A DNA stretch of 64,000 nt, from NCBI GenBank assembly GCA_948567375.1, contig OX419755.1, positions 67,522,944 through 67,586,943 on the forward strand, read 5' to 3'. The translations under genes and the position numbers were made by a program. Origin of the DNA: Lunularia cruciata (Eukaryota; Streptophyta; Marchantiopsida; Lunulariales; Lunulariaceae). Positions 18,517 to 64,000 of the stretch are shown here, in pieces (the stretch's first letter is position 1; every line of letters starts with the position of its first letter). The notes beneath the pieces are model-generated. The model saw only the letters and a program-made list of their open reading frames with translations, made no database searches and had not been told where the DNA came from.

Positions 18517-18853
18517 GCTCATTATAAATCTATATCTCAGGTCCTAGTGAGGGAGGAGATTGACTCTGAGTCAGAGTTTGACGCATGAGCTCATTCAATT
18601 GAGAGTGCACTTGGTGTGTCTATACCATTACTGTGGGACATGGATGAGATTTATGGTGCCTCTAAAGGTCCCAAACATTACTCTAGTATAGTGGGTACCA
18701 TTGAGTTGGATAACTTCATCCAAGAGTTTGATAGTTGGTGTGATCTACAATAGATGCCGAAGTTTGTTCATACCTTTCATGGCATAGAAGGGGTTGTTTT
18801 GGCATTTGGAGGGTCTACTAATGGAAAACTACCATGAGTTTGAGAGAGCTCAC
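18517..18853 (+). pseudogene. MT-1 gag, first visible segment
   Basis: The + strand reads LLWDMDEIYGASKGPKHYSS, then ELDNFIQEFDSWCDLQ, a stop, then MPKFVHTFHGIEGVVLAF. This resembles the N-terminal capsid region of a Ty3/gypsy Gag. It stops at the TGC-3 insertion and continues at 22637. Confidence 0.6.
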
Positions 18854-22636: not shown

Positions 22637-23064
22637 TTGGAGGAGATTGAGCTATAGAGATAGTATTGGTTTCCAAACTATGTATCCATTACTTTAGGTG
22701 CGGTTTCTAAGGGTAGATTGGCAAAACTCATGAGTTCTAGCTCTAGTAGCATTGGTGGATCTCTTGGAGATGGTGTTACTACAGGAGGTGGTGTAGTATT
22801 GGGGTTTAACCCCATGGTGTAGTTCTTTTATTGTTTGAGGCAGTACTACCAAGGAGTGCGGAATGGCAAGCTAAGGAGCTTGCAGGAGTTCCAATAGAAC
22901 TGTGAGGAGAGCCTACACAAGGCATATACTCACATGACATGGCTGATCAATTTTACTTAGGGAGTTACTAAGGCCCAAGCAGTCCAACATGGAGTTGCAA
23001 CATAGAGTTTGTGATGTTATGTTCCAAAAGGCTACTTCATTTACTTTGGCAGTGGTCTTTGGTT
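22637..23064 (+). pseudogene. MT-1 gag, second segment
   Basis: The gag continues after TGC-3. A serine-rich stretch is followed by capsid-like sequence, including YYQGVRNGKLRSLQEFQ and CEESLHKAYTHMTWLINFT, ending at FTLAVVFG before Tat-3. Several stops are present. Joined across Tat-3, the frame passes into LAKRIKLNMVEERVVKSRFG at 45249. Confidence 0.6.
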
Positions 23065-32790: not shown

Positions 32791-32799
32791 TTTCACAAG

Positions 32800-39445: not shown

Positions 39446-39458
39446 GTCCGGGGGTAAA
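39446..39458 (+). other. Tat-2 polypurine tract
   Basis: GTCCGGGGGTAAA lies directly before the 3' LTR. The purine run is short and G-rich, the same as in Tat-1. Confidence 0.75.
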
Positions 39459-40150: not shown

Positions 40151-40235
40151 GGCCATACAGGCGCAATCCGACTTCTCTATACACTTCTTCTTCTCTATTT
40201 TGAAAAAAAAATAAAAATGTGTGCACCACACCACC

Positions 40236-43578: not shown

Positions 43579-43583
43579 AGTTT

Positions 43584-44515: not shown

Positions 44516-44556
44516 AGAGACCTTCACTTTGAGGACAAAGTGAAAACTTAGTCCGA

Positions 44557-45244
44557 GCACTCATTTGTGCATGTGTAAGGTATTGTGATATTTAGCTTTG
44601 TATTACAAGTACTTGAGAGATATTATTTATATAGAGATAAAGGATATTTCTACATTAGTCATGATTAGCTAAAGTTGGTCATAACTAAGATAGAGAGGAC
44701 CTTCCTTTAGAGGAAGTAGAAAAGATGAACACCACTAGTTTGGATTCTAGTGTGTTGACTTGGTATTGTTCTTAGGTGTTTGACTTTGAGGAAAGAGTTG
44801 AGAGCTCTAGGGCCCGCAAGCCTTTTTGTGTTGGATTTTTCTATAGTCCAAGGATAGCCCATGTGAAGGAATCCTTGACTTAGTGGTTGGGTCAAGATAA
44901 GATTATATGCTTAGTGGAATATGCCCATATGGATGGATATTCCTTTATACTTTTTGACTTTACTTGACTTTTAGCCTAGTAACTTGAGTTACCCCAGTAA
45001 TTAGTAACTTTGGTGCATAACTATTTCACAAGTATATAAAGAAGGGGTGAAGAAGTACTCATCATCCTTTTTATTTGCAACTATCTCTCTCTCATTGAGT
45101 TCTCTAGTGAGCAATGTCTTGAGTATTGGAGTGTTAGTCTTGGAGGAGTATGATGGAGTTGGGGTTCTTTGCATTCTTAGTCCATGATGCGCTACCATAA
45201 TAGCCATTAGAGGTTCATCATGAGTGAGAGATAGGCTAGCTACA
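44557..45244 (+). repeat. Tat-3 3' LTR, first bases deleted
   Basis: This matches the Tat LTR from CACTCATTTGTGC on. About 17 bases covering the end of the purine tract and the LTR start are missing (GTCCG runs straight into AGCACTC). It ends TAGCTACA at 45244. Confidence 0.88.
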
Positions 45245-45248
45245 AGTT

Positions 45249-45760
45249 TGGCTAAGCGTATTAAGCTCAACATGGTGGAGGAAAGAGTGGTGAAATCTAG
45301 ATTTGGTAAGGAGATCTATCCACAATTGTTACTTCTTCTAAAGTGCAGCAAAGTGCACAATGCCATGTCAGTTTCCAAGGACAAGGTGAACAGCCTAGAT
45401 CCTATGGAGTGAGTGGAAGGCCTAGTGTGGCCAGACTCTTGCCTTCATTTTTTAGTCAACATCAACCAATGAGTGATGGTGTTGCTTGTTGGCCTTGTGG
45501 TAGACTCATCACAAGAGAGAGTGCACTCAAGGCAGTGGACTTGATACCTATGGTGCATCACAACCAATACATAGATAGCATGAGCATTGCCATAAATTTG
45601 GTCACACCAATGACCAAAGCTTTGACTTTCACCTAGAGTTATGAAGTGGTAGAACTGCTATGGCAGGTGGTAGAGGAGCTCTAGATCATGGAGGACAAGG
45701 TGGTAGAGGATCCACACTTAGGAGAGGTGTCGTACCTACCCTCACATTTGATATAGCCAT
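45249..45760 (+). pseudogene. MT-1 gag C-terminus with zinc-knuckle remnants
   Basis: The reading continues from 23064 with LAKRIKLNMVEERVVKSRFG. After frame changes, a knuckle remnant CWPCGRLITRE lies near 45490, followed by a second Cys/His stretch (HCHKFGH, near 45590). A Gly/Arg-rich segment (GGQGGRGSTLRRG) then leads toward protease. No clear feature is seen from 45760 to 46120 beyond a frame-broken linker. Confidence 0.6.
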
Positions 45761-46119
45761 GGCAACATGGTGATATCGTGCATGATGGACTACCTACTAG
45801 TCAACCACCCTCTACTACACAAACTAAGTCTAGCATGATGTTGGGGGCAATTCAGCTGATTATGTGCTTTCCATTATTCTTCACCAATGATATGTGTACA
45901 TTGGGAGTTGACCTAGCCCTAGGGTTTTGGTTGGTTGCCATGCTCTGTGACAGGTAAGGATGATGTGGTTCTTGCTACTAAATTAGAGGTGGTTGATAGT
46001 GGAGTTGACTTGGTTGAGGAGCATGGGATCCACTCAGTGACCAATGGTTTATGGTAGACAACAATGGCTAGATTGGAGGAGTTACCAACTAGACCGGCCT
46101 TTGAGAGAGCATGTTTTAC

Positions 46120-46560
46120 ACCTGGAGTTGTCATAATGGATAACCAAAGGAGGATTTTTTTTGTGGGACCTATGTGGTGTACAGACCTTTGTGAAGGTCT
46201 ATACATCACAAAGGGTCTTACTAGACTCTGGTGTGAAACCCTTTATGTTGGGGAAGGCTATAGTTGTCGGTTTGGAAGTATGGAAGACCGATGTGGAGAG
46301 GTGTCCATTTCAAATCCAAACATCTCTAGATGGTGGTTCTTCCATAATACATCATATGTGGAGAGCTTGTTGTTCAGATTCAACTTGGTCATCCAATTGA
46401 TAGCTCTATAGTGAAAGCTCAGGCTATTGCAACAATGGTTGTGATATGATATGTTAGTTGGAAGAGCAATGTTACACCCCATGGGTTTCAGTATTGACTT
46501 TTGGGAGGAGATAGTGTCCTATAGACCAGGTTGGCAGTCAGGTGAGAGATGAGTATGTTG
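46120..46560 (+). pseudogene. MT-1 aspartic protease
   Basis: The frame 46161-46400 contains LLDSGVKPFMLGKAIVVGLE, with the D-S-G active site, and then CPFQIQTSLDGGSS. After a frame change, LHPMGFSIDFWEEI and SYRPGWQSGE follow. The MT-2 copy has the same order. From 46560 to 46936 there is a decayed linker ending in a DLITLTPLDTTLIAW-like block just before the methyltransferase. Confidence 0.75.
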
Positions 46561-46935
46561 CCTACTAATATGCTTGAGTAGTAGCAATCTTGGCTCACTA
46601 TAATCCGGGACCATGTTGACATCAATTTTAGCTTTTACTGGTGTTGTTTCTTGGCCTGTTGACTTATTGGAGGGGAACACCCATCCAAAGGATATGCCAA
46701 TATCAGAGGAGATCACTAAGATTTGGAGTATGAGTGGGATTTTTCCATCCATCTTGGATATTGTTTTGTGGAGTTCAAAGGATGCAATGTAGTTGCATGT
46801 AGATTAGTTGGTGAAATAGGCTTGGAGTGGAGCCTTTGTACCACTAGGCGACTAGTGTGATTATGAGCCTCCACATTTGATTACCTTGATACCTCTAGAT
46901 ACCATACTCATTGCTTGGCAATATCCAGTAGAGGG

Positions 46936-47878
46936 AGTATGTCTATTGGAGTTGTTCAATGGGATTAGCATTAGACTAGCTACGGTACTACAGGCAGGTA
47001 TACAAGTATAGAGCTACTTGTATGTAGAAATAGATAAGACTATGAGGTGAGTCTCTTTACATCATGTGGCACATTGGCCTATTGGTATCTTGACTTATTA
47101 CCAATGTTACCAGTCAAGGGTTACCAAAAGATCTTACTAGTAGGCATTTCCTTGCTGGGGGCATAGGATTTGGAGAGACATGGTCCCATTCATTTGGTGA
47201 TTTTGGATGGCCATGTCAAGAATATCACATGCTGGCCAAGGTTAGGGTCTTTAGGATCCTCATTTTGGTGTGTTTTGGGAGATGTTATAGATACTATGAC
47301 ATCTCCAAGTTCATCGGTCCATTTCTCCAGCTTATGTTTTGGAGAACGTCCCTTTGATGGGTGATTCTTGCACCATGGTGGTGGCAAGCACACATCAAGT
47401 CCATTCTTGGATGGGACTTGTAGTGTTGTTGGATGCAACTAGAGTGGGATTACAAGCTCATCATCTTTGTCTTTGGTGGACAAAGCTCTTACCTAGAGAG
47501 GTTTTACAATGCGCTTATGATAGGATTCAAAAACTAGATCACATCATTGTTGATGATATCTTGGATGTTGGGCATCAATCTCAGATGGTGGTAGTGGCTG
47601 ATAGGTCACTTATGGCAATGGTGAACCTAGTTGGATAGCCTTGAGCCGCTTTTCCCACACTTATGAGTTTCCTAGTCTCCCATGCTTTTTCAGAGAGAGG
47701 TCTTGGATTGGTTTGGGACTCATAGTTATAGTAGTTGGTGGAGCCCAATGCCAATTAGAGAAGTGGGTGATGGGTTTCACATTGGTATTATTGCTGGTCC
47801 AGCAATATCAAAGGCATCTAAGTGTCAAGTGTTAGGTCAGGCTATGGACCTGAATTTTTTGACTTGGATTGTGAGCCA
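46936..47878 (+). pseudogene. MT-1 C5-cytosine DNA methyltransferase domain, decayed
   Basis: C5-methyltransferases move a methyl group from S-adenosylmethionine to cytosine in DNA. The motifs in order are: I, LLELFNGISIRLATVLQAG (46943 on); II, YLYVEID; IV, FGWPCQ at 47202-47219 with the catalytic cysteine codon; VI, ENVPLMGDS at 47342; VIII, LDATRVGLQAHHLCLWWT near 47440-47475; IX, VMGF near 47766; X, VLGQAMDLN near 47829. Spacings (about 86 codons from I to IV, 44 from IV to VI) match the family. Frameshifts lie between motifs, so it is dead. It sits between protease and RT, as in MT-2. The domain identity is strong by motifs; no search was run. Confidence 0.8.
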
Positions 47879-47910
47879 TTGAGGAGCTCAAGCAATCCCT
47901 TGTTGTAGCT
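47879..47910 (+). other. 32-bp patch of Tat pol sequence inside MT-1
   Basis: The bases from TTGAGGAGCTC to TTGTTGTAGCT are identical to a stretch of the Tat-family RNase H region (near 28344 in Tat-3 and 37628 in Tat-2). They lie exactly between methyltransferase motif X and RT, where MT-2 has about 650 bases of linker. This looks like filler DNA at a deletion junction. Confidence 0.8.
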
Positions 47911-48472
47911 AATCTATATGCCATGCTTACACCAAAGGAGATCTTTGATGCAATTGGGCATGCAAAGGTCTTCAGTACTTTGGATCTTTGAGCAGGATAT
48001 CATCAGTTGCCAATCAAGAAGGAGGATAAGTCCAAGGTAGCATTTTGGGCTATTGATCCTCATGGCAAGGATGTGTTATATTAGTTGAAGTTCTTACCAT
48101 TTGGGTTAAAGACCACTCTTGCCAAGTCCCAAATGGTCATGGACAAGATCCTAGTTGGATTGGATTTTACTTGGTGCTATATTGATGACATTTTGGTCTA
48201 TAGCACCATGGTGGAGGAGCATGAGAGACATTTTTGGAGGTGTTTGAGAGGTTGAGATCTCATGGACTCAAATTACATCTTGGGAAGTGTAGGTTCTAAC
48301 AAGCAGGTTGAGTATTTGGGTCACACTATCTACTTTGGAGGACTTGGTGTTTAACAAACCAAGGTGGAGGCTATTGCGCATATTCCTTGGCCTATGAATG
48401 TGAGCAAAGTGCAAGCATTCTTGGGAAAACTTCTATCACCGCTATGTAAGAGGATTTAGTGCCATTGCCAAG
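47911..48472 (+). pseudogene. MT-1 reverse transcriptase
   Basis: Blocks are TPKEIFDAIGHAKVFSTLDL, a stop, AGYHQLPIKKEDKSKVAF, FLPFGLKTT and the catalytic CYIDDILVYST near 48180. VEYLGHTIYFGGLGV follows, then a stop. The part from 47911 to 48472 ends at the TGC-6 insertion (GPSAIAK in the MT-2 reading). Multiple stops are present. Confidence 0.88.
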
Positions 48473-51400
48473 TGTCACAACCTGGCAAATACCACTTTTG
48501 CAATAATCAGGTAAGTAAAGTTTGTTCCCACAAAGATATTGGTAAAAAAGTCCAAATACAAAGAAAATAGTAACAATCTCAATTCTTCTTGGTTGCGTCT
48601 TTAATCTCTCAGGTAGAAACTACACCCAAAAGAGATAACAAGCATTGACTCACAATCTTGTCACAAATTGACAAACTCCATCAAATATTGTCCAAACATT
48701 TCTTGATTGTGATGATTCATATTTTCCCAAAGACGGCTTCTTCATTGCAAAGCACCTTCACCTCAGAATTCTGTTCTACCCCTCTACCCCTCTACCCCTC
48801 CACTAAAGGCACAACTCCCTTGATCAAAATTGCTTCACATCAACTCTACGTTGCATTCCACAAATGCAAATACTACCAACTCTACAATTCTTCTCAGATC
48901 TATCAAGGCATTGCTCCGATTGCACTTCACTCAAGATCAAACACACAAAATGAAAATGAAGGCTCTAGAATCCTACATCCAACAAACACACTAACTTGCA
49001 CTTCAAATTTCTCTCAACACTCATAAACACACACATAGAATTGACACTTGGAATTAAGCTCAAGCAATGAGCACTAAAATTAGCACTTTTCTTTATCTAT
49101 ATTTAGAAATTATGAATACTAAATAACATAAGATTGCGAATGCCCCCTTTAAATAGTAGAGCAATTGACACTTAACTAACAACTATATTGTTCTACAACA
49201 ATTCTATAAACCTTTAAATCCAAATGACAATGCACATCTTCATATTTCTACTCCAATCCAATGTCAACTTCAACTTTGGCTTCCAAACCCGATGTTCCTT
49301 TGAGTATTTCCCCTTCTTTGGGTCTACTCAATTCTACTCCAAACACTTCTCTTTCTACAATTTCTTCACTACAAACTACAATTGCATTCCTATCTATTCT
49401 ATCTTCATTAGTATTTTCTAACACATTTTTCTCTAATGTCTCAAGTAATGAGTCTGAGAACACTTGGACTCCTACTTCACTTACTTTGGGTCTTCTAACT
49501 ACTTGCACTTCACTACAAAGTTTATCCAACTTTGTCCTATCAAGATCCAATCTGAGACACACATTGTCTCCTACTTCTAACATCTTCCTATCTACCCGAT
49601 CTCATAGACAAATTAATAATTATTCAGCTATGTGTCCTTTGCCTTCCTCTTCCTTGTCTCTTGCATCAACAACTTCAACTAGTGCAGCCTAGCTTCTTCC
49701 AAATTCCCTTTGACCTTTGTGCTGAGCATCACCTTTATCTTGTTTACCATTCCTGCTACGTCATTGGCTTCCACCACTGTCTCGAGCTTCTCCTTCTTTC
49801 TTTCTTCTTCCAATTCATTGTGATACATCTGTAATTTTTCCTCAAACTCAGCCTTCATCACCTCCTTTTCTTGTCGATTTACCGCAATTTATTCTTCCGC
49901 CACTCTCAAAAATCCTTGCACTTGCTCTTCTTCTCTACCACATTTTGCTAACTCCCGGTGCCAAGCTTGATCTTTCTTGGCTGCCTTCTTCTTCATACTC
50001 TCCATCTCTTGCTCGATTACTACCAGACTTGCCTTTGAATGTATTAATTCTACTCATGCATCAACAATTTCTCCCTTCAACACTTCTACCAACGCCATCT
50101 TCTCCTTAGCTTCCTCACAACACTTCACCAAATCTTCCCTCATTGCTTTGGAATGTTTACCCCAAAGAATCTCCTCCACCCAAAGTTCTTTGGCCTCCAT
50201 CTCTACTCATGTTAATTACTTCTTAACAACAAGGTCTCTACACTCCACTTTTCTACTACTGCTAACTCATCTCGCACGTCAAGGTTAGCACTCACCATCT
50301 CTACTTTCTATTGTTGTAGAAACACTAACAATGGATACACAACCTTTGACAAGTACTCTACTCCGTTGTACTTCTTGTCCTTGGCCCAAACTTTGTCTTC
50401 CTCTCCAGGTAACTCTCCTACTAGTGCCTTACCCCAAAGTCACAATCTCCGTACCTTCAATGTTTCCCCATCTAAGCTCTCCTCCTCTTCTGTGGTGACT
50501 TTATTGGGCTCACTTTGGCTACGTGCACACTTCTCGTCCCCTTGGCAATTCTTGGACATACCAAGACTCCTTCTTCTTCCTTCTTCTCACACCCTTGTTT
50601 GATAGTGGACACCTCTAGACTTGGCTTCTCGGTATCCACACTCCGTCTACAAGTTTGCTGAACCTCTGCCTTGCCTTTGCTACCACTACTTGATTCTTCA
50701 CTTCATAGTGTGAACTCTTCTTCTCCTCCCAAAGCGTTTCCCTTTGACTCAGTTCTCCTTTGGACTCCTCCTCTTCTTCCGGAGTAGATTCCTTTGCTTT
50801 CATCACCACTGCCTTTGGGTTAGGTTTTTGCATCTAATGCGGCTATACTACCACAATGTGACTTTCAGGCTTAGTTCTCTTCTTTGCCCTCGAGATATCA
50901 ACCGCTACAATTTTCTCCTTCCCACTCTTCTTGTAATACTCATCCTCTTCTCTCACACGCTCCATATAATATTGTTTATCTACATCTGTCTCGTTGCGCA
51001 GATCCGGATAAAGGTATGATTGCCTTTGGTTTCTTTCCTCCAAAGTCAATAAATTCATCCCAAAGTAGAAATGAGCTGCAAAGGGCATGAAATAATGGGA
51101 TTGCATGTCCATTCTCCAACCCAAAATCATCTGCCCCACTTGTTGATGCAGACATTTTGCCCAATCTATTACTTCTCCTGCAAACATTTGGTGAAAGAAC
51201 ACCGCTTGTTGCATCATGACATAGGTGGTTCACTCTAGCTTGAACATTGCCATCATCGCGCTTACAATCCTTCTCCGCTTGGGATCTCTATGGCTATCCA
51301 CCTTATACCCATTCTTGGTGCGAGGTTGATTGAAAGAATTTCTCACCTCAGCAATCTCTTCTCATCACACTTCCAATAGAAGGTGGTACCTCTCTCCTGC

Positions 51401-52208
51401 TTCTCTCCCCAAGACTATTCTCCAATCTGGCTTAGTCCATCAAGCCAGATTTCCTCTCTTCCCTTCATGCTTTGGCCCATCCTTGTTATCACTCATTGCG
51501 ATTTCTACCATGAAACCTAAAAAACTGAAGTTCCAACTCCAGGCCAAGAACGTGATACAAAGTCTTGCTAAGACATTGATTCTCACCACTACATCTAATC
51601 TACATATTACAAGTCCTTTCACCACACTCTACTCACTCACTTTTGGGGCCATTGTGTGTTTCCTCACTCTCTTCTTATGAAAGATCATTCTTGAGATCCT
51701 TACTCACTCATCTTCTTGCAAATTTGCAATTTTCATTTTCATGCAATACTTTGGGTTGACTTTGAATAGGGACAAGGTAGCATCTAGACATTGCACTGCT
51801 TCCTCACAAAAATCTCAATTTTATAGTCCTTTGTTGATTGGTCATTCTTCAATTTCTTCTTTGCTCTAGTCACCAATTTTGTGAGGTTGTTTCCTGTCAC
51901 TATCAAGGACTTCTTGATCCTAAGGTTGTCACTTTCTTCCCGTGTACTTTCTTGATTGGCAAACCTCAAAGAAGTTTGTTACAAGTTCTTTGGATCAGGC
52001 TACGCTACCCAATACAAAGTCCACTTCTTCATCTTTCTCTCTTATCCTTGGGTTCTTCAGACTTGACCCAAGGTTGACTTTGGGTTTGGCCCAAACACAT
52101 GTTTATTCACATTTTCTGTCCCGTTTAGCCCTCCTTCAACTTTACTTACGTACTTCTTCTTCAAAACTTTTCAAAAACCATCCAAAACCAAAGAATGTGG
52201 GTACCACA
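48473..52208 (-). mobile_element. TGC-6: complete, diverged TGC element (3.74 kb)
   Basis: The ends are TGTCACAACCTGG at 48473 and GGGTACCACA at 52208. CCAAG flanks both sides (48468-48472 and 52209-52213). It is collinear with TGC-3 along its length but clearly more diverged, with different ORF breaks, so it is an older insertion or a separate subfamily. A short CCCCTCTA repeat lies at 48779-48801. Confidence 0.9.
49248..51660 (-). pseudogene. TGC-6 protein, diverged and broken
   Basis: Open pieces correspond to the TGC protein. 51625-51440 holds LDVVVRINVLARLCITFLAW. 51217-50843 holds the conserved domain (AVFFHQMFAGEVIDWAKCLH and FMPFAAHFYFGMNLL), 49861-49679 coiled coil, and 49583-49248 the C-terminus (LEVGDNVCLRLDLDRTKLDK). 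The conserved residues in the N-terminal domain (FFH, FAGE, W-A-C, PFAAHFY) are the same as in the younger copies. This marks the part that was under constraint before the subfamilies split. Confidence 0.6.
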
Positions 52209-52213
52209 CCAAG

Positions 52214-52895
52214 GCCTTAACAAAGCTGACCAATCTTACACAAGAGTGGTGCTGGGAAGATGAGCAAGAGAGAGCTTTTGTAGAGCTCATGGGGAGGTTG
52301 ATATTTGGTCCTATTTTGAGGAGACTGATCAAAGGATGATCATTTCAGATTCATACTAATTGGAGTATGTTAGGGCTTAGGGCAATGCTTATCTAGCATG
52401 ATGATGAGGAGAAGGAGTTTGTGGTGGCCTATGCTAGTTGCTCCAACCATTCAACAGAGGAGAAGTATAGTTCATATGAGAGAGAGTGCTTGGTAGCACT
52501 ATGGGCAATAACACATTTCCGATGCTACCTATTTGGTAATCCCTTTACTCTCATCACTAATCATCAGCCATTGAAGTGGTTGATAAAGTTTGACAAGCTC
52601 TCAAGGAAGCTCGCACAATGAGCTCTGATTTTATAAGAGTATGATTTCATGGTTATTTACATACTTGGGGTGGTGAACCTTGATGGAGATGGGTTGAGTA
52701 GAAACACATGTCCCAGCCAGTAGGATCAGACCAGAGCATGTTGGCATGGTGAGAGAGATGAGGAGATGGTGCCTTGTTGGCACGTATCTGCCTTTCTCTA
52801 TATATTTTTGAGGCTTTGGTGGTATCTCTCTCAATGCATACATGAGGAGTTATTGAGGTCACATATCTAGAGAGTGGAGATAGTGGTATAGTCCA
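52214..52895 (+). pseudogene. MT-1 RNase H and linker
   Basis: The reading resumes after TGC-6 at ALTKLTNL-like sequence and QERAFVELMGRL. RNase H blocks are VVAYASCSNHSTEEKYSSYE, ECLVALWAITHFRCYLFG and LITNHQPLKWLIKF. A linker with DGDGLSRN follows and the sequence breaks off at 52895 where TGC-7 begins. In MT-2 the same region continues into the integrase finger. Confidence 0.85.
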
Positions 52896-55620
52896 TGTGG
52901 TGCCCACAATTTTTGTTTTTTTCAAAATAGAGAAGAAGAAGTGTATAGAGAAGTCGGACTGCGCCTATATGGCCAAAGAAGGCAAAGAAAGAGTCTCCGA
53001 GATGAAACCCAAAGTAAAGTGACTTCGGGTCAGAAGGCGAAGTACTTGGAAATTCCCTATCAGCACACAACCCGAAGTAAGGAGTCTTTGTATCCGGGAG
53101 AGCTCAACCCGAGGCGAAGTCAGTCTAACAACCTTTTGCCGGGGCAAGAAAGTCAAGAAGGGACCGTTCAAAAACCGGCGGCCCATACGCACGAAGTATG
53201 ATTGACAGTGACAGGTGCATGCATGAGGTGTGATTTCTTGGTAGAAACTTGAAGTGAAGAAAGACGAAGAAAGTGCAACTCTATAAGAATTGAACTTGGA
53301 ACGACGCAATGTTGAGTAATTTTCCTTTGCCATTGAGAAGTTGTCTTGCAGGTGATTATGGGAAGGGAAAAAGAGTTGGAAACGCGTTAGTGTATAAGGG
53401 AGAAGTTGCAAGAGTGAAACCAAGAGACAGTGAGAAAGTAGGAGAGATGGGAGGAGGAAAGAAGAACTCCAAATTTGCAATGAGAAATCATGCAATTTGG
53501 AGGTTAGATGTGATCACGAGGATCAAAGTCTTGAGCTGACTTTGGATCACCTTCTTGGCATGGAACTGGAACGTGAGTTTTCCAGGTTTCATGATAGAGA
53601 TCATCAAGAGCAAGTGTCTCGATAGACCCAAGGAAGAAGGGAAGAGAGGAAATCCGGCTCGCTGGATAAGTTGGATTGGAGATTAGTACTCGGGAAGGAA
53701 GCAGGCTCGGAGCAGGGGGCCACGTTCTTGGGGAAGGGAGAGATAGCCCAAGAAACCCAAGAGGTGAGAGATGCATTCTCGTCAAAGCGGACAAAGAATG
53801 GGTACAAAGTCAAGAGCTACAAAGATCCTATCAAGAGAAGAATTGTGAGTGCTCTGATGGCAATCTTGAAGCCAGAGAACACAACTTATGTGATGAAACA
53901 CCAAGCGGTGTTCTTTCACAAATTGTTTGCAGGAGAACTGATAAATTGGGCGAGGTGTTTCCATTGGAGAACGCAACAAATGGTTTGGAATCTGCGGGAT
54001 AAATTGCCTCCACACTACATCGTGCCGTTTGTAGCTCATTTCTACCTCGGGTTGAATTTGCTGAACTTGGTGGAGCAAACTTGGATGGTGTTGCATTTCC
54101 ATCCCAATTTGAGAAGGAAGGTCGATGTAGAGGAGCAGCAGTACATCTTGCAAATCAGAAGCACCGACGAGTACTACAAGAAGATGGGGAAGAATGTGGA
54201 GATCAAAGTGAGTACTCCAAAATTGAAGAAGAGAAGTCGGCAAGGCAAAGCCAACAACACAAAGAAACTTTGGAAGACCAGGAGAGGAACCCCAAGGTGA
54301 GGCATGGTGGTGATTGAGTCGGAAGATGAAGACTCGGAAGGTGACGCTGAGCGCAAGACCAAAGACTCGGAACATGAAGAGGAGCCCAAGCTAACGCTGT
54401 AGAGTGGAGATACGAGTAGCAACAGCGATGAGGGTGGAGAAATGACATTGGCGCCAACTGTTGCAGAGGAAGAAGAAGAAGTGCAGGCAGAGATTGAGGC
54501 CGAGGACAACACGAAGTTGGAAGATGAAGTACCCAAGGCAGAAGAGAAGATTGCAGTTCAGAGGGGAGTCCACTTGAGACATAAGGCAAAGTACAATGCA
54601 GGTCCGAGTAACGTGAAAGAAGAAGCAAATGAAAGCTTGGGAAGCAAGGCGTCCATTCCGATACGAAGACTATAGAGAAGAAGGCGAGTATTGGATGAAC
54701 ATGAAGTACAAAGAGAAGTTGCTACGCAAGAGGAAGTAGTAGCAAGCAATGGGATGGAGTATTTGAGAAAGGTCGTGTGTCCATTGCTGGTGAAGCTAGA
54801 GTACAAGAAGAAGGAGATGTAGTCGACTTGTCCAGAGGTGAAGACTGTCTTGCAGGTGTTATCAAGATTAGAAGAAGAGAACTCGGAGTTGAAGAAGAGT
54901 ATAACCCGAGGTGAGGAGGAAACGGAAGTACTACGAGTGGAGGCAATAATGACGACTCAGGTAATTAAAGACCTAAAGAGAGAAGTGAGTTATTGAGAAG
55001 ATCTTGTTAAGAAGAGTGACATAGCAAGGGAGAGACAAGTAGCTAAATATGAAATCTTGAAGCAGCAGTTTGCTGATTCAAGAGTAGAAGTTATCTATGC
55101 TATGGCAAGAGTAGCAGCAAAAGATCACGAGCTCAATAGGGTGATGGAGAGCCTAGAGGAGAAGAAGCAACTCTGGCAAAGAGAGTTGGCAGCACGATAT
55201 AGGGAAGAAGAGAGATTACGAGAGTTACTTTATAATCAGGAGGAGAAGGTTGTACAGAAGCAGAAGGAGAAGGAGACGGTGAAAGCCAAGTTTGAGGCGG
55301 AATTGGCCATGTATAGGGAGGATTGGCTCGCAGATCGTGAACGAGAAAGAAAGATGAGATTGGAGCCATTGAAGGAGATAGTCCTCAGGATGAATGTGAT
55401 GTTGAGTACAGAGGCCAACGTTTGAATTGAAGAGACGAGGCTGCACGAGTTGAAATTGTTGGTGCAAGTGACGAGGCAAAGACAGGCAAAAGACACTAAT
55501 TTGAATGCCTTGTTGATTAGTTTAAGAACTCGTGTAGATAGGAAGATCTTAAAAGTAGAAGACAATATTGCGATTAGATTAGATTTAGTGAAAATAGAGA
55601 TAGAAAAACTTCGGAAGGAT
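52896..55620 (+). mobile_element. TGC-7: TGC element truncated at a breakpoint
   Basis: The left end TGTGGTGCCCACA at 52896 is preceded by GTCCA. The element is collinear with TGC-3 for 2.7 kb and stops at 55620, inside the coiled coil (EIEKLRKD). About 1 kb including the right end is missing. The next base belongs to MT-2 in inverse orientation, so the expected second GTCCA is absent. Confidence 0.88.
53309..55617 (+). pseudogene. TGC-7 long protein, 3' truncated
   Basis: The ATG is at 53309 (MLSNFPLPLRSCLAGDYGKG). The conserved N-terminal domain is in the open frame 53671-54300 (TTYVMKHQAVFFHKLFAGEL, INWARCFHWRTQQMVWNL). 54442-54675 holds the acidic and basic segments, and 55057-55425 the coiled coil (MESLEEKKQLWQRELAARYR). 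The stops (for example 54298 and 54673) are at other codons than in TGC-3, TGC-4 and TGC-5. The last codons run into the breakpoint. Confidence 0.65.
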
Positions 55621-55990
55621 TGAATGATGCTCTAACTTGGTCACAAACCACACATCTGGCAACAAACTGCTGTACCTTGGTCTGCATACCGCACCACCAA
55701 TAATGACTCTAGAGTAAGCTATATGTACGCTTTACTCCAAAATGTCCTAGCTCCTCATGAGCATGACGGACCAACTGTGGTCTTTGAGATGGAAGTGGTA
55801 CTACTTGCACTCTACCCTCCTCCCATACACACAAAAGATGTCTACCCTCCAATCTGAACCATCTGGCTTGCTGAAGAACACGGTCTCTCTTCTTGGCCCC
55901 AATTGTGCCACCCACAACACCAATGCAAGGATAGTCCATCACTAAGACATCATCATGAATGTCTTGCTAAACTGTACTAATATCTTCACT
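55621..55990 (-). pseudogene. MT-2 integrase N-terminal zinc-binding region
   Basis: The - strand frame 55942-55709 reads MDYPCIGVVGG, RDRVLQQARWFRLEGRHLLC and AHEELGHFGVKRTYSLL. After a stop, CVVCDQVRA follows. The H-H and C-x2-C pattern is the integrase HHCC finger. The catalytic core is missing beyond the breakpoint. Confidence 0.8.
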
Positions 55991-55999
55991 CTCTGGATC

Positions 56000-56744
56000 T
56001 ATGACCTCAATAACTCCTCTGTATGCACTGAGAGAGATACCACCAAAGCCTTTGAAAATATACATAGAAAGGCCGATGCATGCCAACCTGGTACCATCTC
56101 CTCATTTGTCTCACCATGCCAATGTGCTCCGATCTGATCTTGCTGGCTGGGATATGGGTTTCTACTCAACCCATCTCCATCATGGTTCACCACTCTAGGT
56201 CTATGAACAACCATGAAATCATACTCTTGTAAAATCAAAGCCCATTGTGCAAGCTTCCTTGAAAGCTTATTGGACTCCATCAACCACTTCAATGGCTGAT
56301 GATCAATGATGAGAGTGAAGGGGTTACCAAATAGGTAACATCAGAAATGTGCTATTGCCCAAACTGCTGCCAAGCACTCTCCCTCATATGAACTATACTT
56401 TGCCTCCGCTGAATTGTTGGAGCAACTAGCATAGGCCACCACAAACTCCTTCCCCTCATCATCATGTTGGGTGAGCACCGCTCCAAGAAATGAACCTGAA
56501 ATGGTTGTCCTCTTATTGGTCTCCTCAAAATAGGAGTGGATGTCAACCTCTCCTTGAGCTCTACAAAAGCTCTCTCTTGCTCATCTCCCCAACACCACTC
56601 CTGTGTAAGCTTGGTTAGCTTTGTCAAGGCCTTGGCAATGGCACTAAATCCTCTAACATAGCAGTGATAGAAGTTTGCCAACCCAAGGAATGCTTGCACT
56701 CCACTCACATCCGTAGGTCGAGGAATATGTGCAATAGCCTCCAC
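56000..56744 (-). pseudogene. MT-2 end of RT, RNase H and linker
   Basis: The - strand shows VQAFLGLANFYHCYVRGFSA, ELKERLTSTPILRRPI, then a frameshift near 56480, the SAEAKYSSYE and IAHFRCYLFG blocks, HQPLKWLMESNKLSRKLAQW and DGDGLSRNPYPSQQDQ. This is the same order as in MT-1. The first catalytic Asp of RNase H is lost at the frameshift. Confidence 0.85.
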
Positions 56745-57330
56745 CTTGGTCTATTGAACACCAAGTCCTCTAGGGTAGATAGTGTGACCCAAATACTCAA
56801 CCTGCTCGTGGAAGAACCTACACTTCCCAAGATGTTATTTGAGTCCATGAGATCTCAACCTCTCAAACACCTCCAACAATAGTCTCTCATGCTCCTCTAT
56901 AGTAGTGCTATAGACCAAAATGTCATCAATATAGCACCGAGCAAAATCCAATCCAGCTAGGATCCTATCCATGACCCTCTGGAACTCATCAAGAGTGTTC
57001 TTTAACCCAAACAGTAAGAACCTCCATTGATATAACACATCCTTGCCATGAGGATCAATAGCCTAAAATGTTGTCTTGGACTTATCCTCTTCCTTGATCG
57101 GCAAATAATGATATCCCGCTCAAAGATCCAAAGTATTGAAGACCTTTGCATGCCCAATTGCATCAAGTATCTCCTCCGGTGTAGGCATGGGATACCAATC
57201 AGCCCTGGTCTATCGGTTGATAGGATGGTAATCTCCACACATCCGCTTATTTGTGTAGCTGCTATGCATATCCTTCTTGGCTGGCATCACTATCATTGAT
57301 GCATACTTTCCATGTGAAATCTCCACCAAT
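56745..57330 (-). pseudogene. MT-2 reverse transcriptase
   Basis: Blocks on the - strand are KYASMIVMPAKKD-like sequence, MPTPEEILDAIGHAKVFNTL, LPIKEEDKSK, FLLFGLKNTLDEFQRVMDRI and the catalytic CYIDDILVYST at about 56915. VEYLGHTIYPRGLG and a stop follow. It closely resembles MT-1 RT, with different breaks. Confidence 0.88.
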
Positions 57331-57954
57331 TTAGCCTCAAAAAGGTCACTATTCCGGCTTTGAATCAATGTCCTCTCCATCTCACTATATCAATATGGAC
57401 GTTGGAAAACTGGTGTATTGCTAGTCAGTTCAATCTGTATACTAGGTCCTTTCAGAGCACCCAAATCCTTCATACTAAAGGCAAAACAACTCATGTGGCT
57501 CCTCAAGAACCTCAAACCCTCCGTCTTTCCTCTCCAGTAAGCTTGGGTCCAAGATCTAGCTCCCAAGTATCCTCTATAACTGTAGTAAGAGTGGAAGACA
57601 TATTGACTGGCTGCTACACTAGGCCCTTGAGAGCAATAGTGTCATATCTCCAACCACTAGAGGTCCTAGCCTCTGTGTGAAAAACTCCCCCCACTCTGGG
57701 TGCAAGCTCCACACGTCTCTTAGCTGCATCCCAAGTGGACCAAAGGTGTAATCCAAGTAGCCCACGCTCACTTGGATGGACTCTAAGTAGACCACTCCCT
57801 CTAGTAGCTATTGGTTGTGTCCCAAGAATACCATGCTCACTCGGTCTATTGCCCCTAGCATGTGCCTGAATTGTCTCGATAGGCACAAGGCTCACAAGTG
57901 TCCGAGTGGTGGTGCCTATCAAGCGCATCCTATGTTGCTCTACCAAGCCAAGGC
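57331..57954 (-). other. MT-2 linker between methyltransferase and RT
   Basis: About 620 bases are partly open on the - strand within the frame 58096-57614 (HARGNRPSEHGILGTQPIAT, RRVELAPRVGG). I recognise no domain. In MT-1 this stretch is replaced by the 32-bp patch at 47879-47910. Confidence 0.5.
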
Positions 57955-58890
57955 TCACAATCCATGTCAAACAGTTCTGGTCCATAGCCTGACCTAACAC
58001 TTGACACCTGGGTGCCTCTAACACTGCTAGAACAATGGTAATACCAGTGCAAAAACCCATCACCCGCTCTCTCTCATCAGCGTTGGGCTCCACCAACTGC
58101 TATAACTGTGAGTCCCAAACAAGTCCAAGTCCTCCCTCTCAAAAAGCATGAGAGCCTGGGAAACTCATGAGTGTAGGAAATGCAACTCTAGGCTGTCCAA
58201 CTAGGTTTACCAGTGCCATAGGTGACCTATCAACCACTACCATTATCTGAGACTGACGCCCAACATCCAAGATATCATCAACAAGGATGTGGTCAAGTTG
58301 TTGAATCCCATCATAAGCACGCTGTAAAATCTCTCTAGGTAAGAGGTTTGTTCACCAAAGACAAAGACAATGAGCCCGTGATCCCACTCTGGCTGCATCT
58401 AACAATATAGTAGGTTCCATCCAAGAATTGACCTGATGTACTCACCACCACTTTGGTGCAAGAATCACCCATCAAAGGAACGTTCTCCAAAAAGTAAGCT
58501 GGAGAAACGGATTGATGAACCTAGAGATGTTGTAGTATCCATAACATCTCCTAAATCACACTAGAATAAGGATCTTGAAGACCCAAACCTCTACCAGCAC
58601 GTGTATGTCTCTAACATGGCCATCCAAAAATCACCAAGTGAATAGGCCCATGTCTCTCTAGATCATGCGCCCCCAATAAGGAAATGTTTGTTGGTATGGC
58701 CTTTTGGTAACCTTTGACTGCTAACATTGGTAGCAACTCCAAATATTGATAGGCCAAGTGTGCTACATGGTGTAGAGAGACTTGACTAGCAGTCTCATCT
58801 CTCTCTACATACAAGTACCTCTATACTTGTATACCCGCTTGTAATACCGCAACTAGTCCAATACTAATCCCACCGAACAACTCCAATAGA
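57955..58890 (-). pseudogene. MT-2 C5-cytosine DNA methyltransferase domain, decayed
   Basis: This is the better-kept of the two copies, about 310 codons, the usual size of a small C5-methyltransferase. Motif I is LLELFGGISIGLVAVLQAG near 58883. A stop and YLYVERDETA (II) follow, then HDLERHGPIHLVIFGWPC (III to IV, Cys near 58615). A stop replaces the Gln after Pro-Cys, and RHTRAGRGLGLQDP follows directly. ENVPLMGDS (VI) is near 58485. VGSRAHCLCLW*TN (VIII) is near 58365, where two Cys codons TGT probably replace Arg CGT. NADERERVMGF (IX) is at 58084 and VLGQAMDQN (X) near 57990. Order and spacing fit the family along the whole domain. Stops make it inactive. Confidence 0.82.
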
Positions 58891-59123
58891 CATATCTCTT
58901 TTATTGGATGTTTCCAAGCAATGAGTGTGGTATCCAGAGGTGTCAAAGTAATCAAATCTGGAGGCTCATCCTCACACTCATCTCCTGATGGTACAAAGGC
59001 TCCACTCCAAGCTTGTTGCACCAACTAATTTGCATGTTGTTGTAACGCTTCCTCTGAACTCCACAATGGAACATCCAAGGTGGATGGAACAATCCCACTC
59101 GTACTCCAAATCCAAGTGATATC

Positions 59124-59650
59124 CTATGGTACTAGATTATCCTCTACATAGGCGTTCCTCTCCAACAAGTCACCAGGCCAAGTAACTACACCACTTAAAG
59201 CTAAAACTGATGTTGCCATGGTCTTGGACTGTAGTGAGCCAAGATTGCCACTACTGAAGTATACTTGTAGGTGATATACCCGTCCCTCCCCAGACTGCCA
59301 ACCTGGTCTATAAGAGGTTGTCTCCTCCCAATAGTCAATACTGAAACCCATAGGGTATAACACTGCTCCCCCAACTAGCACATCATATGACTTAACTATT
59401 GTCGCAATAGCCTGAGCTCTCACCACTGAGCTATCAGTTAGATGACCAGGCTGAACTTGGACAACAAGCTCCCCACATGTGATGTACTATGTTGAACCAC
59501 CACCTAGAGATGTTTAGATCTGAATTGGACACCTCTCCATATCGGTCTTCCGTAACTCCATACCAACAATTGCAGCCTTCCCCAACATAAAGGGCTGCGC
59601 ACCCGAGTCTAACAAGACTCTCTGTGGTCTAAAGACCTTCCTTGAAGGTC
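59124..59650 (-). pseudogene. MT-2 aspartic protease
   Basis: The - strand reads RVLLDSGAQPFMLGKAAIVG with D-S-G. A stop, TSLGGGST and, from 59426, VRAQAIATIVKSYDVLVGGA, LYPMGFSIDYWEETTSYRPG follow. The last block is characteristic of this element family and is shared with MT-1. From 59124 to 58890 a linker leads into the methyltransferase (DLITLTPLDTTLIAW). Confidence 0.8.
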
Positions 59651-59706
59651 CCACCAAACGGAAAATCCCCCTTTAGTTATCCAATAGGACCACACCAGGT
59701 GTGAAC

Positions 59707-59761
59707 TATGACAGCTCGACAAATATCACTTTTGCGGTAATCAGGTAAGTAAAGTTTGTTC
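59707..59761 (-). mobile_element. TGC-8: end of a TGC element, interrupted by Tat-4
   Basis: TATGACAGCTCGAC and then AAATATCACTTTTGCGGTAA match the 3' terminus of the other TGC copies, with the terminal TGTG changed to TATG. Only 55 bases are visible before the Tat-4 LTR; the rest would lie right of the window. The left flank in MT-2 is TGAAC. Confidence 0.8.
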
Positions 59762-60435
59762 TGTAACACCCATTTGTGCATGTGTGTGGTATTGTGATAT
59801 TTAGCTTGGTATTACAAGTACTTAAGAGATATTATTTATATAGAGATAAAGGATGGTTCTATATTAGTCATGGTTAGCTAAAGTTAGTCATAGCTAAGAT
59901 AGAGGGGACCTTACTTTAGAGGAAGTAGAAAAGATGAGCACCACTATTTTGGACTTTAGTGTGTTGACTTGGTATTATTCTTAGGTGTTTGGCTTTGAGG
60001 AAAGAGTTGAGAACTCTTGGGCCCGCAAGCCTTTTTGTTTTGGATTCTTCTTTAGTCCAAGGAAAGCCTATGTGAAGGAATCCTTGACTTAGTGGTTGGG
60101 TCAAGATAAGACCACATGCTTAGGGGAATATGCCCATGTGAATGGATATTCCTTTCTATTTTTTGACTTTACTTGACTTTTAGTCTAGTAACTTGAGTTA
60201 CTACGGTAATAAGTAACTTTGGTACGTAACCATTTCACAAGTATATAAACAAGGGGTGAGGAGGTACTCATCATCCTTTCATTTGCAACTATCTCTCTCA
60301 TTGAGTTCTCTAGTGAGCAATGTCTTGAGTCTTGGAGTGTTAGCCTTGGAGGAGTATGATGGAGTTTGGGTTCCTTGCCTTCTTAGTCCATGGTGCGCTA
60401 CCATAATAGCCACCAGAGGTTCAGGCCAGCTCACA
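59762..60435 (+). repeat. Tat-4 5' LTR
   Basis: This is about 674 bp from TGTAACACCC to CAGCTCACA. Near the end about 15 bases (the tcctgagtgagagac block of Tat-2) are missing, so that GGTTCA joins GGCCAGC. It has the 13 bases that are missing from Tat-1. Confidence 0.93.
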
Positions 60436-60439
60436 TTTT

Positions 60440-60457
60440 TGGTTCCGTTGCCGGGAC
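60440..60457 (+). other. Tat-4 primer binding site
   Basis: TGGTTCCGTTGCCGGGAC is the same as in the other Tat copies, four bases after the LTR. Confidence 0.7.
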
Positions 60458-61294
60458 CTCTCTAGAAGGCAAGATAATGTTCCGCGTTCAATTCTACATT
60501 AGGCAGAAGGAGGCTATGAGAGCTCACTTGGAGAGAACATTAGGAGAGGAGAGGGCTGAACTTATGTTAGAGAACCAAGATCCATTTGTATACCCTGTGG
60601 TTCATTATGATGTCTTTGAGGTGATTTTGTACATCTTGTACACATGAGAGGAATTGGAGAGATTGTGTGAGGTGGATTGTAGATTTTGGGGATCAAGGTG
60701 ATTTTGGGTAAAATCTCAAGTTTGAGATCTGGCCTTTAAATTTCTACACATGATAGCTTGGGTTATCTTTCAGTTAGCACACTTGAAATAATTATGAGAG
60801 CTAATATGCGCACTGGGCTAGAATTTTTGAAAGTTGATAGGATAAAGTGCTCCCGCAACTGCATGCTCTCTGGAAAATTATACAGAATCTGCCATTTCTT
60901 CAATTTTCAGTAAATTGTCCTGAAAATTTCCAAGAAAATTAAGTGCATTGTATCCTACCTGCTGCTACAAAAATTAGAGAGAGATCATTTTTGCGCAGGG
61001 AGTTATGAGTTTTTGAAGTGAGGGGAGTGGTTTTGAGACCAAATCTGAAATATGTGTGCTAAATAGAAAGGTGTCTAGGCCAAATGGCTTGATGAAAAGA
61101 TCTGAAATTTTGCAGGGAGGGACACCCTGGAGTTGTAATCAAGTGGACCAAATTTTAGAGGACTGTGACATACTGGTTGAGATATTTGAGTGACATTGTG
61201 AGGAAGGGTCAATTCTGCAGAGTGGAGATCTCATGCATGAGGAGTTTGAGATCAACAAAAAGCATGTTTGAGTGTTTAGATTCATCTTGGGAAC

Positions 61295-61750
61295 ATGGAG
61301 GGTCATCAAGAGTGGAAATTGAGATTATGCAAATTTCCCCAAGGGTTTGAGATGATTGTAGGGGTTGATTTGAGGAAAAGAGAGTTTACAATAGAATTTG
61401 AAGAGAGTATTGAGAGGATCCAAAAACCTACACCACTTGGAGGAAAGAGTGAGTCTAAGTGCTTTCTATGTGGAGAGAAGGGACATAAGGCAAGTTCATG
61501 TCCATTGACCTTTGAGAGCAAGAGATTGAGGGAAAGGAGAGGCTTACTTGACTTGGGTTTGCATGTTGGACCTTCTTCACCAAGATTGGGAAGGAGAAGA
61601 TCTAAGACCAAGGAGTTGTGTGAGGTTTGTGGAGTTGAAGGACTTCCAAAAGGACATGAGTGTAGTGGAGTAAAAGCACTTTTGGAAACTTTGGTGAAGG
61701 ATCTTGGAGAGAGTCTTAGTACAGCTACAGAAATACTACCACCTTCATAA
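61295..61750 (+). pseudogene. Tat-4 CCHC ORF, slightly truncated
   Basis: This has the same start and both Cys/His clusters as Tat-2 (CFLCGEKGHKASSC and CEVCGVEGLPKGHEC). A TAA near 61748 replaces a serine TCA-like codon and removes the last residues. It may still encode a nearly full-length protein. Confidence 0.7.
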
Positions 61751-62001
61751 GCTAGTTCTCAAGATTAGTGATGGAGATAATCTTTCAACTTATGGATAAA
61801 CTATCCATGAGAGTTAGATTAATATGCACTCTAGGATTTGATGTTGTTATAGAAATCTTGGAGCAACCTGAACCTTTTGTGTTCCCTAGAGTGGATTATT
61901 CTCAGATAGTGTTAGTCATGTATATACTCTATTAGTAATAGAGTGAGAGAAAAGAAAAGAGAAAAAAAATTGAGAGAAAAGAAAGATAGTGAGGGGTTAA
62001 G

Positions 62002-64000
62002 ATGGGGAAACTTTCGGTTTTCTTTGGCAAGGATGGAAAAGATGTGGAGGCCTTTGTGAGAGACTTCAAGAAAGCTTGCATATGAAACAATGAGAGGAGG
62101 AAGAATGAGTGGGCCTCATTATTACCAGATTTCTTTGAGGATGCAGCACTTACATGGTATGAGTCAGAATACCAAAAGAGAGAGAGGAGAGATGGGGAAG
62201 AGGAGTCTTGGGAGACTTTGACTTCAGCACTCATTGAGAACTTTCTTCCTGATGAGAGTTATGAGAGATTGATGAGTGAGGTTACATTTCTCAAGCAAGG
62301 AGATGGAGAGAAAGTGAGAGTCTATGTGGAAAGAGTGGAAAAGTTGGAGTCCAGATTTTGCATAGTGTTGAGGAAGGGTGGGGATGATGTGGAGACTACA
62401 ATGATTGGCATAGGGGCCATGCTCACCAAGAATTTTGTGGGAGGGTTGAGACCACAAATTAGAAGCAAGGTGAGATATGAGAAACCTTCTTCCAAGGTTG
62501 AAGCTATCAAGATCGCAATTCGTATGGTGGAGAGTTTGGAAGGGGATGAGAGTGATTTGGTGGTGAAGGAGGTTGTGCATCCTCCTCAAGGCTACAAGTA
62601 TGGTGGAACTTCTGATACTTTGGTGGCAAGGGTTGCACCACAAGTAGTGGTTGCTCCAGTTCTTGCACCTCCACCAAAAGGTCTACTTCAAACCATCACA
62701 GAACAACTTGTAGATCTCAAGATCAATGTGGTGCAACTATGGGAGAAGAGAGAGGTGGATCAGAATGTAGGGAGAGGGCCTAGGAGTTATGGAAACTATC
62801 CATATAGAGGAGGCCAACCATCCAACAATTTCAATGATAGAAATTGTTTTGGATGTGGAAGAAGAGGCCATATCCAAAGGAATTGCCCAAATTCCACTTA
62901 CCATGGAGGAAGGGGTTATGAGGGAGCCAATAGAGGGAAAGAGGGAGGTAGTGAAACCCAAGTGGCTCCTAATCCCAACAAAGGTAAGGAGATAGCATCC
63001 ATAGATGTGGTTGAGAGCAAGTATGAGAAGGGAGAGTGCTCAAACTCCAAGGGTCTTAATTTGGAGCTTTTGGCACAAGAGAAGAAGAGAGCTCATTTTA
63101 CAGAGGATGTTCACTCTTCTCAAGGATTTACTTCAAGCAAGGATACTCCTATGTCTACTAGGAGCACTCGCACCTCAACACCATCAACAACAAAGACTCC
63201 AAGGAAGAAGTTGGGGATGGAGGATTTCTTGATTTCAAAGCAACAATGGAACTACAATGTGTTGGAGGATGTTGGTAGTCACAAGGCTAACATCACAGTG
63301 GGCCAATTGATTGCTTTGAACCCTACCTTGAGAAAGGAGCTTAGAGGTGGTTTGAGTTCTACAAGGAGCAAGAAGAAGAAGAAGGCAAAAGTTCCAATAT
63401 CAATGGGGGTGGTGGATGCCAAGCCAACACCATGGGAGGCTTGCAAATATGCCTCCAAGATTGATGTGAGAGTGAATGGTCACAACATCAAGGATGCATT
63501 GGTTGATGGAGGATCAGCAGTGAATGCCATGTCTGAAAGGTTGATGAAGAAGTTGGGTATGATACCCTCAAGACCTTCAACATTTGTGGTGAGCATGGCA
63601 AACAAGCAACAAGTTTGACCAGTAGGAGTGATGGATAAGGTGGTAGTTTCAATTATGGGAGTTCAAAATCTCATAACTTTCCAAGTCTTGAAGGATTCAA
63701 GCTATGACTTACTTCTTGGGAGGCCATGGTTGAGAGCAGCACGCACAACTGATCGATGGCACAAAGGGTACTTGAGGATTGGGCCATCAAACCATAGAGT
63801 CATTGTTCCTGTGACTAACACCACCAACACTTCACATTCAGATACACCATCTTCTGATTATTGGGAATCAGATTCTGAAGAAGGAGCTTCAAGTGTGGAC
63901 ACAAGCATGGAGGAAGAGACTTCCATGGAGGAGGATGAATCTGAATCTGATTCAGATGTATATCCCTTGTGTGCTATGGATTTTGCACCTAAGCCAAAGG
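62002..64000 (+). pseudogene. Tat-4 Gag-Pol, gag to protease, with two stops
   Basis: The ATG is at 62002. TGA at 62083-62085 replaces GGA, after only 27 codons, and TGA at 63616-63618 replaces CGA shortly after the protease active site (ALVDGGSAVNAMS). Between them the frame is open, with Gag, the CCHC knuckle (CFGCGRRGHIQRNC) and protease. After the second stop the reading is again open (LLLGRPWLRAARTTDRW) to the window end. Confidence 0.92.

Follow-up and report, generated by a model that had tools for sequence, protein, structure and literature searches.

A DNMT3-type cytosine methyltransferase in a Ty3/gypsy-like retrotransposon lineage of bryophytes

Known DNMT3-bearing retrotransposons and the liverwort element

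Retrotransposons bearing a DNMT3 domain are already known, and the closest described systems come from an alga and from dinoflagellates. KnitGypsy-Dnmt3 of Klebsormidium nitens combines gypsy domains with the repeat structure of DIRS elements (A-coding region-B-A-B), and its enzyme produced no methylation in yeast, a result which its authors call inconclusive; two DNMT3 domains from the SymbioDIRS retrotransposons of dinoflagellates methylate CG in yeast (PMC5890265). Other Ty3/gypsy elements have in-frame stops between Gag and Pol (PMC10085805), and in plant viruses UAG-CARYYA is described as the motif of type I readthrough (PMC5382211). According to an opinion paper of 2019, DNMT3-bearing transposons do not occur in land plants (PMC6338049). 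Lunularia cruciata, the source of the DNA analysed here, is described as a liverwort rich in gypsy elements (PMC9985172).

We analysed 64,000 nucleotides of the L. cruciata genome (assembly GCA_948567375.1, contig OX419755.1, positions 67,522,944 to 67,586,943; hereafter the window), which carry two dead copies of a Ty3/gypsy-like retrotransposon lineage from bryophyte-type plants. We are confident of the identity and anatomy of this lineage: it is Ty3/gypsy-like, and its first frame (ORF1) encodes gag, protease (PR) and a DNMT3-type cytosine-5 methyltransferase (MT). As in KnitGypsy-Dnmt3, a DNMT3-type domain without introns and under purifying selection lies in a gypsy-domain coding region flanked by A-coding-B-A-B repeats; however, the algal domain belongs to the Pol ORF, whereas here the MT ends a gag-PR-MT frame before UAG-CARYYA, and the present element further differs in its land-plant hosts, its many copies and a PHD finger on its integrase (IN) (PMC5890265). 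The word 'PHD' does not occur in the main text of the paper on the algal element (PMC5890265). Common descent of the two is likely, given that both combine these unusual split-repeat ends with gypsy domains and a DNMT3 domain; the algal element is set beside ours by its published description only. The SymbioDIRS-Dnmt3 elements also combine a DNMT3 domain with A-coding-B-A-B repeats but have a tyrosine recombinase, in contrast to the DDE-type integrase (rve) and 4-bp target duplications found here (PMC5890265). With the fission-yeast Ty3/gypsy elements Tj1, Tosmo and Tcry1 our element shares an in-frame stop between two coding parts, although theirs is a TGA after Gag alone, in another context, and ours is UAG-CARYYA after gag-PR-MT (PMC10085805).

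These elements are at odds with the printed absence from land plants, a contradiction shown for bryophytes only, since no tracheophyte host appears among the organism-named matches. We found no earlier description of a land-plant DNMT3-bearing retrotransposon in the open-access literature searched, and neither the REXdb paper nor a review of additional ORFs uses the word methyltransferase in its main text. What is new is the occurrence in land plants, the gag-PR-MT frame, the type I stop, the PHD finger on IN and the many copies.

Dead copies in the window and younger copies in the same genome

Copy 1 runs along the minus strand from about 59.7 to 55.6 kb in the order protease, linker, MT motifs I-X, reverse transcriptase (RT), RNase H and integrase start. 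The plus strand carries a second MT copy (46.2-48.5 kb), 82% identical to copy 1 over 1.7 kb (self-comparison and tblastn).

Copy 1
58914..59660, minus: aspartic protease and linker; LLDSGAQP at 59592-59615
57974..58886, minus: MT domain, DNMT3-type motifs I to X; broken
58854-58886, minus: MT motif I
58794-58811, minus: MT motif II
58659-58685, minus: MT motif III
58614-58640, minus: MT motif IV, GWPC
58476-58496, minus: MT motif VI, ENVP
58355-58387, minus: MT motif VIII
58052-58075, minus: MT motif IX
57974-58000, minus: MT motif X
57608..57616, minus: ORF1 stop, TAG CAG CCA, fitting the type I context UAG-CARYYA
56490..57533, minus: reverse transcriptase; YIDD at 56907-56933
55984..56487, minus: RNase H
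55620..55905, minus: integrase start, H2C2 region; HEELGHF at 55739-55759; cut by a repeat at 55620

Copy 2
18640..18847, plus: gag N-terminus, probably of copy 2
22643..22990, plus: gag continued, probably of copy 2; separated by a family C insert
45245..46159, plus: gag C-terminal part and linker, beyond nested inserts; several tblastn pieces
46194..46918, plus: protease and linker
46892..47876, plus: MT domain, broken; GWPCQ at 47205-47225, motif X at 47829-47855
47908..48472, plus: reverse transcriptase; MT-RT linker and first RT part missing
52209..52892, plus: RNase H, beyond the repeat inserted at 48473-52208

Repeat C
18853-22556, 28615-32319 and 48473-52208; on the minus strand, 40635-43578 and 52896-55620

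An earlier note on this DNA had claimed C5-cytosine methyltransferase motifs in the right order on the minus strand, lying between the protease and RT of a plant Ty3/gypsy element. Both claims are borne out: motifs I to X of DNMT3 type follow one another from 58886 to 57974, and the domain shares the protease frame. The MT frame of copy 1 is broken, with a single frame change near 58400 and several stops. The protease of copy 1 reached 12.6 of 20.3 bits, under the Pfam cut-off, and was called by its LLDSGAQP motif, its position and its relatives; gag was called likewise by position and motifs, and the gag Pfam matches of relatives also fell under the cut-off. Copy 1 is interrupted 5' by repeat B (59755 on) and 3' by repeat C (52896-55620). 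We infer from order and strand that the three gag pieces belong to copy 2, where they have been pushed apart by nested inserts of families B and C. Comparison of the two copies revealed no third-position excess, probably because most changes came after insertion. Both are older than the copies fetched from elsewhere in the genome, with dS to those younger copies in the MT of 0.14-0.29 for copy 1 and 0.39-0.45 for copy 2.

Some further features of the window concern its nested structure. Copy 2 was absent from the earlier description. Repeat B is another Ty3/gypsy type of about 7.8 kb, with two full copies in inverted orientation (2083-9886 and 32319-40151; 99.1% identical) and partial copies at 23065-28614, 43577-45251 and 59755-64000; repeat C (about 3.7 kb) is a third family, inserted repeatedly into the MT element and beside B. 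An LTR-like pair (44558-45217 and 59767-60423) was considered as the LTRs of the MT element and rejected, as it belongs to element B.

In the whole genome (566 Mb, 74 contigs) at least 123 places match PF00145, all over the cut-off; this is a lower bound, with 123 scored of 2161 candidates. The majority show the profile match range of the MT element, and the 28 examined comprise 24 MT elements and four host genes (L031 to L034). Twenty copies were fetched for their long open frames near the MT, a choice that biases the set toward intact copies. The element measures 9.9-10.0 kb (six copies read at both ends). Its ORF1 reaches 1428 codons (stop to stop) and encodes gag-PR-MT without introns, the MT being C-terminal, with the protease motif at codon 762 and MT motifs I, IV and X at codons 1006, 1092 and 1302. 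ORF2, of up to 1037 codons, encodes RT, RNase H, an H2C2 and rve integrase and a terminal PHD finger (39.1 bits against a cut-off of 24), and the PHD-bearing tail of a Marchantia model matches all 20 loci (L039-L058). At the extreme C-terminus of the integrase ORF, the finger is possibly a histone reader for target choice. The Marchantia gene model P0106 also holds a PHD finger (563-607, 36.7 bits).

Where they could be read, the termini start with TGTCAC and end with GACA. A single A repeat (449 bp) stands 5' and B-A-B (B, 106 bp) stands 3' of the coding region; B1 is present at 20 of 20 loci, and six further 3' ends were read. Target duplications of 4 bp flank all six copies checked. The order RT-RNase H-IN with an rve integrase, the TG..CA ends and the target duplication are Ty3/gypsy traits, but the two equal simple LTRs of Ty3/gypsy elements are not present (5' A versus 3' B-A-B); where DIRS elements have a tyrosine recombinase and no target duplication, this one has an rve integrase and 4-bp duplications. 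A1/A2 pairs, present in 16 of 20 copies and in some clipped by the end of the stretch, differ by a K2P of 0.0025-0.034 in 15 cases and 0.11 in one, and such small distances indicate recent insertions, in relative terms.

Relatives and kinship of the methyltransferase domain

A search for longer proteins returned 18 matches among 775 candidates, and a profile search returned 159 among 8000 scored. Of the 120 profile matches listed, 32 carry an organism name: 25 from Marchantia polymorpha, four from Calypogeia fissa and three from Sphagnum (S. fallax, S. troendelagicum and S. jensenii). Klebsormidium is not named among these 120 of 159 nor among the matches listed in the two other protein searches, and most listed matches lack an organism name. 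Long ORFs or gene models with the MT domain occur in Calypogeia, Marchantia and Sphagnum, and in the models P0064 and P0066 PF00145 is found together with RVT_1 and RNase H. With phmmer, the MT domain of P0062 finds all 158 collected proteins (E<=1e-5, set of 158). Conservation was read from an alignment of relatives limited to matches shorter than 500 residues: of the readable rows, 101 of 102 have the motif-IV Cys, 92 of 98 a Gln directly after it and 61 of 63 the Asn of ENV (motif VI). Identity of copy 1 to 14 of the 158 relatives is 58-64% over the first half of the MT (12 rows; 45% and 37% in two spliced models), 44-65% over the second (11 rows), 61-70% over RT (4 rows) and 43-53% over PR-linker (14 rows; one spliced model 37%).

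Of 96 candidate proteins, 61 matched the first MT half of copy 1 at E<=1e-3, with a best value of 2.9e-58 (60% identity), and the top solved structure for this half was human DNMT3A (E=0.001). PF00145 scored E=0.042 and 13.7 bits against a cut-off of 22 on this half and found no match in the second. An NCBIfam scan returned the general dcm model, under its cut-off. The profile is passed by 8 of the 14 relatives scanned, at 29-51 bits, and by an open-frame copy from the same genome at 31 bits. Of the first nine relatives one did not pass, P0079, a spliced gene model that lacks motif IV; the five others, a set chosen for other regions, all stayed under the cut-off (one at 19.4 bits). The earlier note had proposed to check its call by a significant PF00145 match spanning motifs I to X. 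The window copy does not give one; above-cut-off matches are found in relatives and a same-genome copy, and in none does the matched stretch cover motifs I to X. The same note had named unrelated linker sequence as the alternative. Though the window copy by itself falls under the Pfam cut-off, a linker with chance motifs and no methyltransferase has a negligible probability, being ruled out by the protein homologues (to 2.9e-58), a structure profile led by DNMT3A, the genome search with DNMT3A, the Pfam-passing relatives and same-genome copy, and the tree.

The MT domain is, on these comparisons, most akin to DNMT3. Its profile found DNMT3A first among solved structures (1.5e-15), followed by DNMT3B and 3C and, at lower ranks, DRM (1e-7), HaeIII (6e-7), DNMT2 (1e-6) and HhaI, with no DNMT1 among the 57 matches. 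A phage C5-methyltransferase run as a control found HaeIII, HhaI, DNMT1, DNMT2 and DRM, with no DNMT3 among the best 60 of 61 matches; as the control is a single sequence and not a profile, only the ranks are to be compared. A human DNMT3A fragment searched against the Lunularia genome (150 scored of 1906 candidates, type judged by match range and fetched copies) had a cellular DNMT3 as its best match (59.9 bits); most of the matches that follow are MT-type places, about 35% identical to the fragment over residues 3-166. In a tree of 20 sequences, a kind of test that the earlier note had suggested, MT and DNMT3 sequences are split from the CMT-like, bacterial and phage enzymes (SH-aLRT 98.1, UFBoot 95; the CMT-like row is one short exon). 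Derivation from DNMT1/CMT, bacterial or phage enzymes was rejected on the structure ranks, the phage control and the tree. Within the same tree the MT sequences lie apart from host and human DNMT3 (98.7/100), and the MT is therefore a DNMT3-type enzyme in its own clade and not a recent copy of a host gene.

A recent, independent capture of DNMT3 from the host plant would account for an enzyme of DNMT3 type that shares PCQ in motif IV with the host's own DNMT3, but is very improbable, and we rejected it, given that all MT sequences fall outside host and human DNMT3 with the support just cited and that the domain is common to two liverworts and Sphagnum. The PCQ of the MT differs from the PCN of human DNMT3A but recurs in the host's cellular DNMT3, so that PCN is no defining trait of DNMT3 in plants. 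Like cellular plant and animal DNMT3, the MT has its motifs I-X in linear order, not rearranged as in DRM, and falls with them at the best-supported deep split of the tree; unlike them, it is not nested within the cellular enzymes and sits in an intronless frame of 1428 codons. Pfam scans of relatives and of the same-genome copy found none of the companion domains of cellular DNMT3.

Three observations lie beside this placement. L031 (C7:31.99 Mb) and L034 (C1:51.67 Mb) are host genes, or remnants of genes, for cellular DNMT3, and their motif IV reads PCQ; a cellular DNMT3 beside genes of CMT-like and DRM-like appearance fits a streptophyte genome. The MT tree has two deep groups; the second and divergent one (P0025, P0034, P0087, P0102 and P0105), with GWPCQGMSM at motif IV, is coherent without support (0/48) in the 20-sequence tree, and its structure matches are led by DNMT3A (6e-14), then HhaI (9e-8) and DRM (2e-5). 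A search of viral contigs gave 30 loci at 25-33% identity, and the four examined are phage-type methyltransferases.

The ORF1 stop, selection and possible roles of the enzyme

ORF1 ends in an in-frame TAG after the MT and ORF2 continues in frame. The nine bases at this stop read TAGCAGCCA in 17 cases, TAGCAGCTA in three and TAGCAGTCA in one; UAG-CAR-YYA thus fits 21 of 21 (20 copies and window copy 1), and UAG-CAG-YYA is present in all, although the 20 copies are close kin and these are not 21 independent events. MT, stop and RT lie in one frame in 16 of the 18 copies with all three landmarks and do not in the other two; two more copies lack a landmark. The junction has the type I readthrough context, and readthrough itself is predicted. 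A stop after gag-PR-MT in the UAG-CARYYA context was not found in the readthrough literature searched. At locus L051 a premature stop inside gag also reads TAGCAGCCA, so the nine-mer can arise outside the junction. Among the 18 relatives with motif X, seven end 94-100 residues past its start (Calypogeia P0062; Marchantia P0063, P0067 and P0077; Sphagnum jensenii P0131; P0069 and P0083), and the rest have earlier ends or models that run on. We equate the stop of the own-genome copies with the ends of these seven through their aligned last residues. The earlier expectation that the MT would be made within the polyprotein stands insofar as it is the C-terminal domain of the gag-PR-MT frame, and needs amending in that an in-frame UAG parts it from RT. 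Given this UAG and its readthrough context, we expect the MT to be produced at Gag level rather than solely together with RT.

We estimated dN/dS from 19 copies (L047, with an incomplete ORF1, was left out; ranges by copy bootstrap). The MT gave 0.36 (0.24-0.54) for motifs I-VI and 0.36 (0.29-0.47) for motifs VI-X. Values elsewhere were 0.29 for gag-N, 0.49 for gag-C/linker, 0.36 for PR-linker, 0.55 for the ORF1 tail, 0.27 for RT, 0.30 for RNase H, 0.52 for IN, 0.41 for IN-C and 0.28 (0.10-0.51) for PHD. These values place the MT under purifying selection in these frame-selected copies, at a strength within the range of the other enzyme parts. Differences between the younger copies are mostly C-to-T (or G-to-A), at 5.4% of CG, 3.9% of CHG and 0.8% of CHH sites, against 0.3-0.6% for transversions, and 84 of 90 premature stops are a single C-to-T/G-to-A change away from the commonest codon at that place. 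The two window copies show the same context order (0.37, 0.29, 0.13). The excess at CG and CHG over CHH implies that the element is methylated in these contexts in the germ line, by whichever enzyme.

These observations suggest a mechanism in which ribosomes would mostly halt at the UAG, so that the MT would be made and packaged at Gag level, while RT-IN(-PHD) would arise less often, via readthrough. The element's protease would free the MT from the polyprotein, and the MT might then methylate the element's own cDNA or fresh insert, such that the new copy would enter host chromatin already marked. To judge from the sequences, the self-methylation step is plausible, if somewhat short of probable. 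It is possible, although we doubt it, that the MT instead acts in trans, methylating RNA, rival elements or host DNA, or that it serves the Gag particle as a nucleic-acid-binding part with dispensable catalysis. Such a job would fit an MT that sits in the Gag polyprotein, the algal relative without activity in yeast and the RNA methylation discussed for the LINE form by de Mendoza 2018 (PMC5890265), but the nearly invariant motif-IV Cys and ENV, a dN/dS comparable to that of the other enzyme domains and the CG methylation in yeast by two dinoflagellate retrotransposon DNMT3 domains (PMC5890265) argue against it.

The C-to-T pattern among younger copies would also be expected if the MT marked fresh copies for host silencing and so slowed its own spread, to the benefit of the host and hence of the element. 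We consider this unlikely: a host DNMT3, together with genes that we take from their motifs to be CMT-like and DRM-like, could explain the pattern, and CHG is not a usual DNMT3 context. The idea of self-restraint is raised in the discussion of the paper on the algal and dinoflagellate elements (PMC5890265).

Returning to marking of the element's own copies, we tentatively propose that a single capture in an ancestor of streptophyte algae and land plants may have founded a split-repeat gypsy lineage with a DNMT3 writer in Gag-PR-MT and a PHD histone reader on its integrase, in which a leaky stop like that of plant viruses would set the dosage of writer to integrase and cDNA would be pre-marked as 'self', an arrangement that would have been kept for hundreds of millions of years. 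MT elements have many copies in one plant genome and occur also in Marchantia, Calypogeia and Sphagnum, and their enzyme is under selection. Why a parasite carries the kind of enzyme used for its silencing thereby becomes testable in Marchantia, a model plant. An element that combined a putative writer, the MT, with a reader, the PHD finger, and a leaky UAG as dosage switch would be a compact case of element-host chromatin interplay. Finally, the ORF1 tail (window 57974-57616, minus strand) exceeds that of Marchantia, Calypogeia and Sphagnum by about 27 codons and seems to contain an internal duplication.
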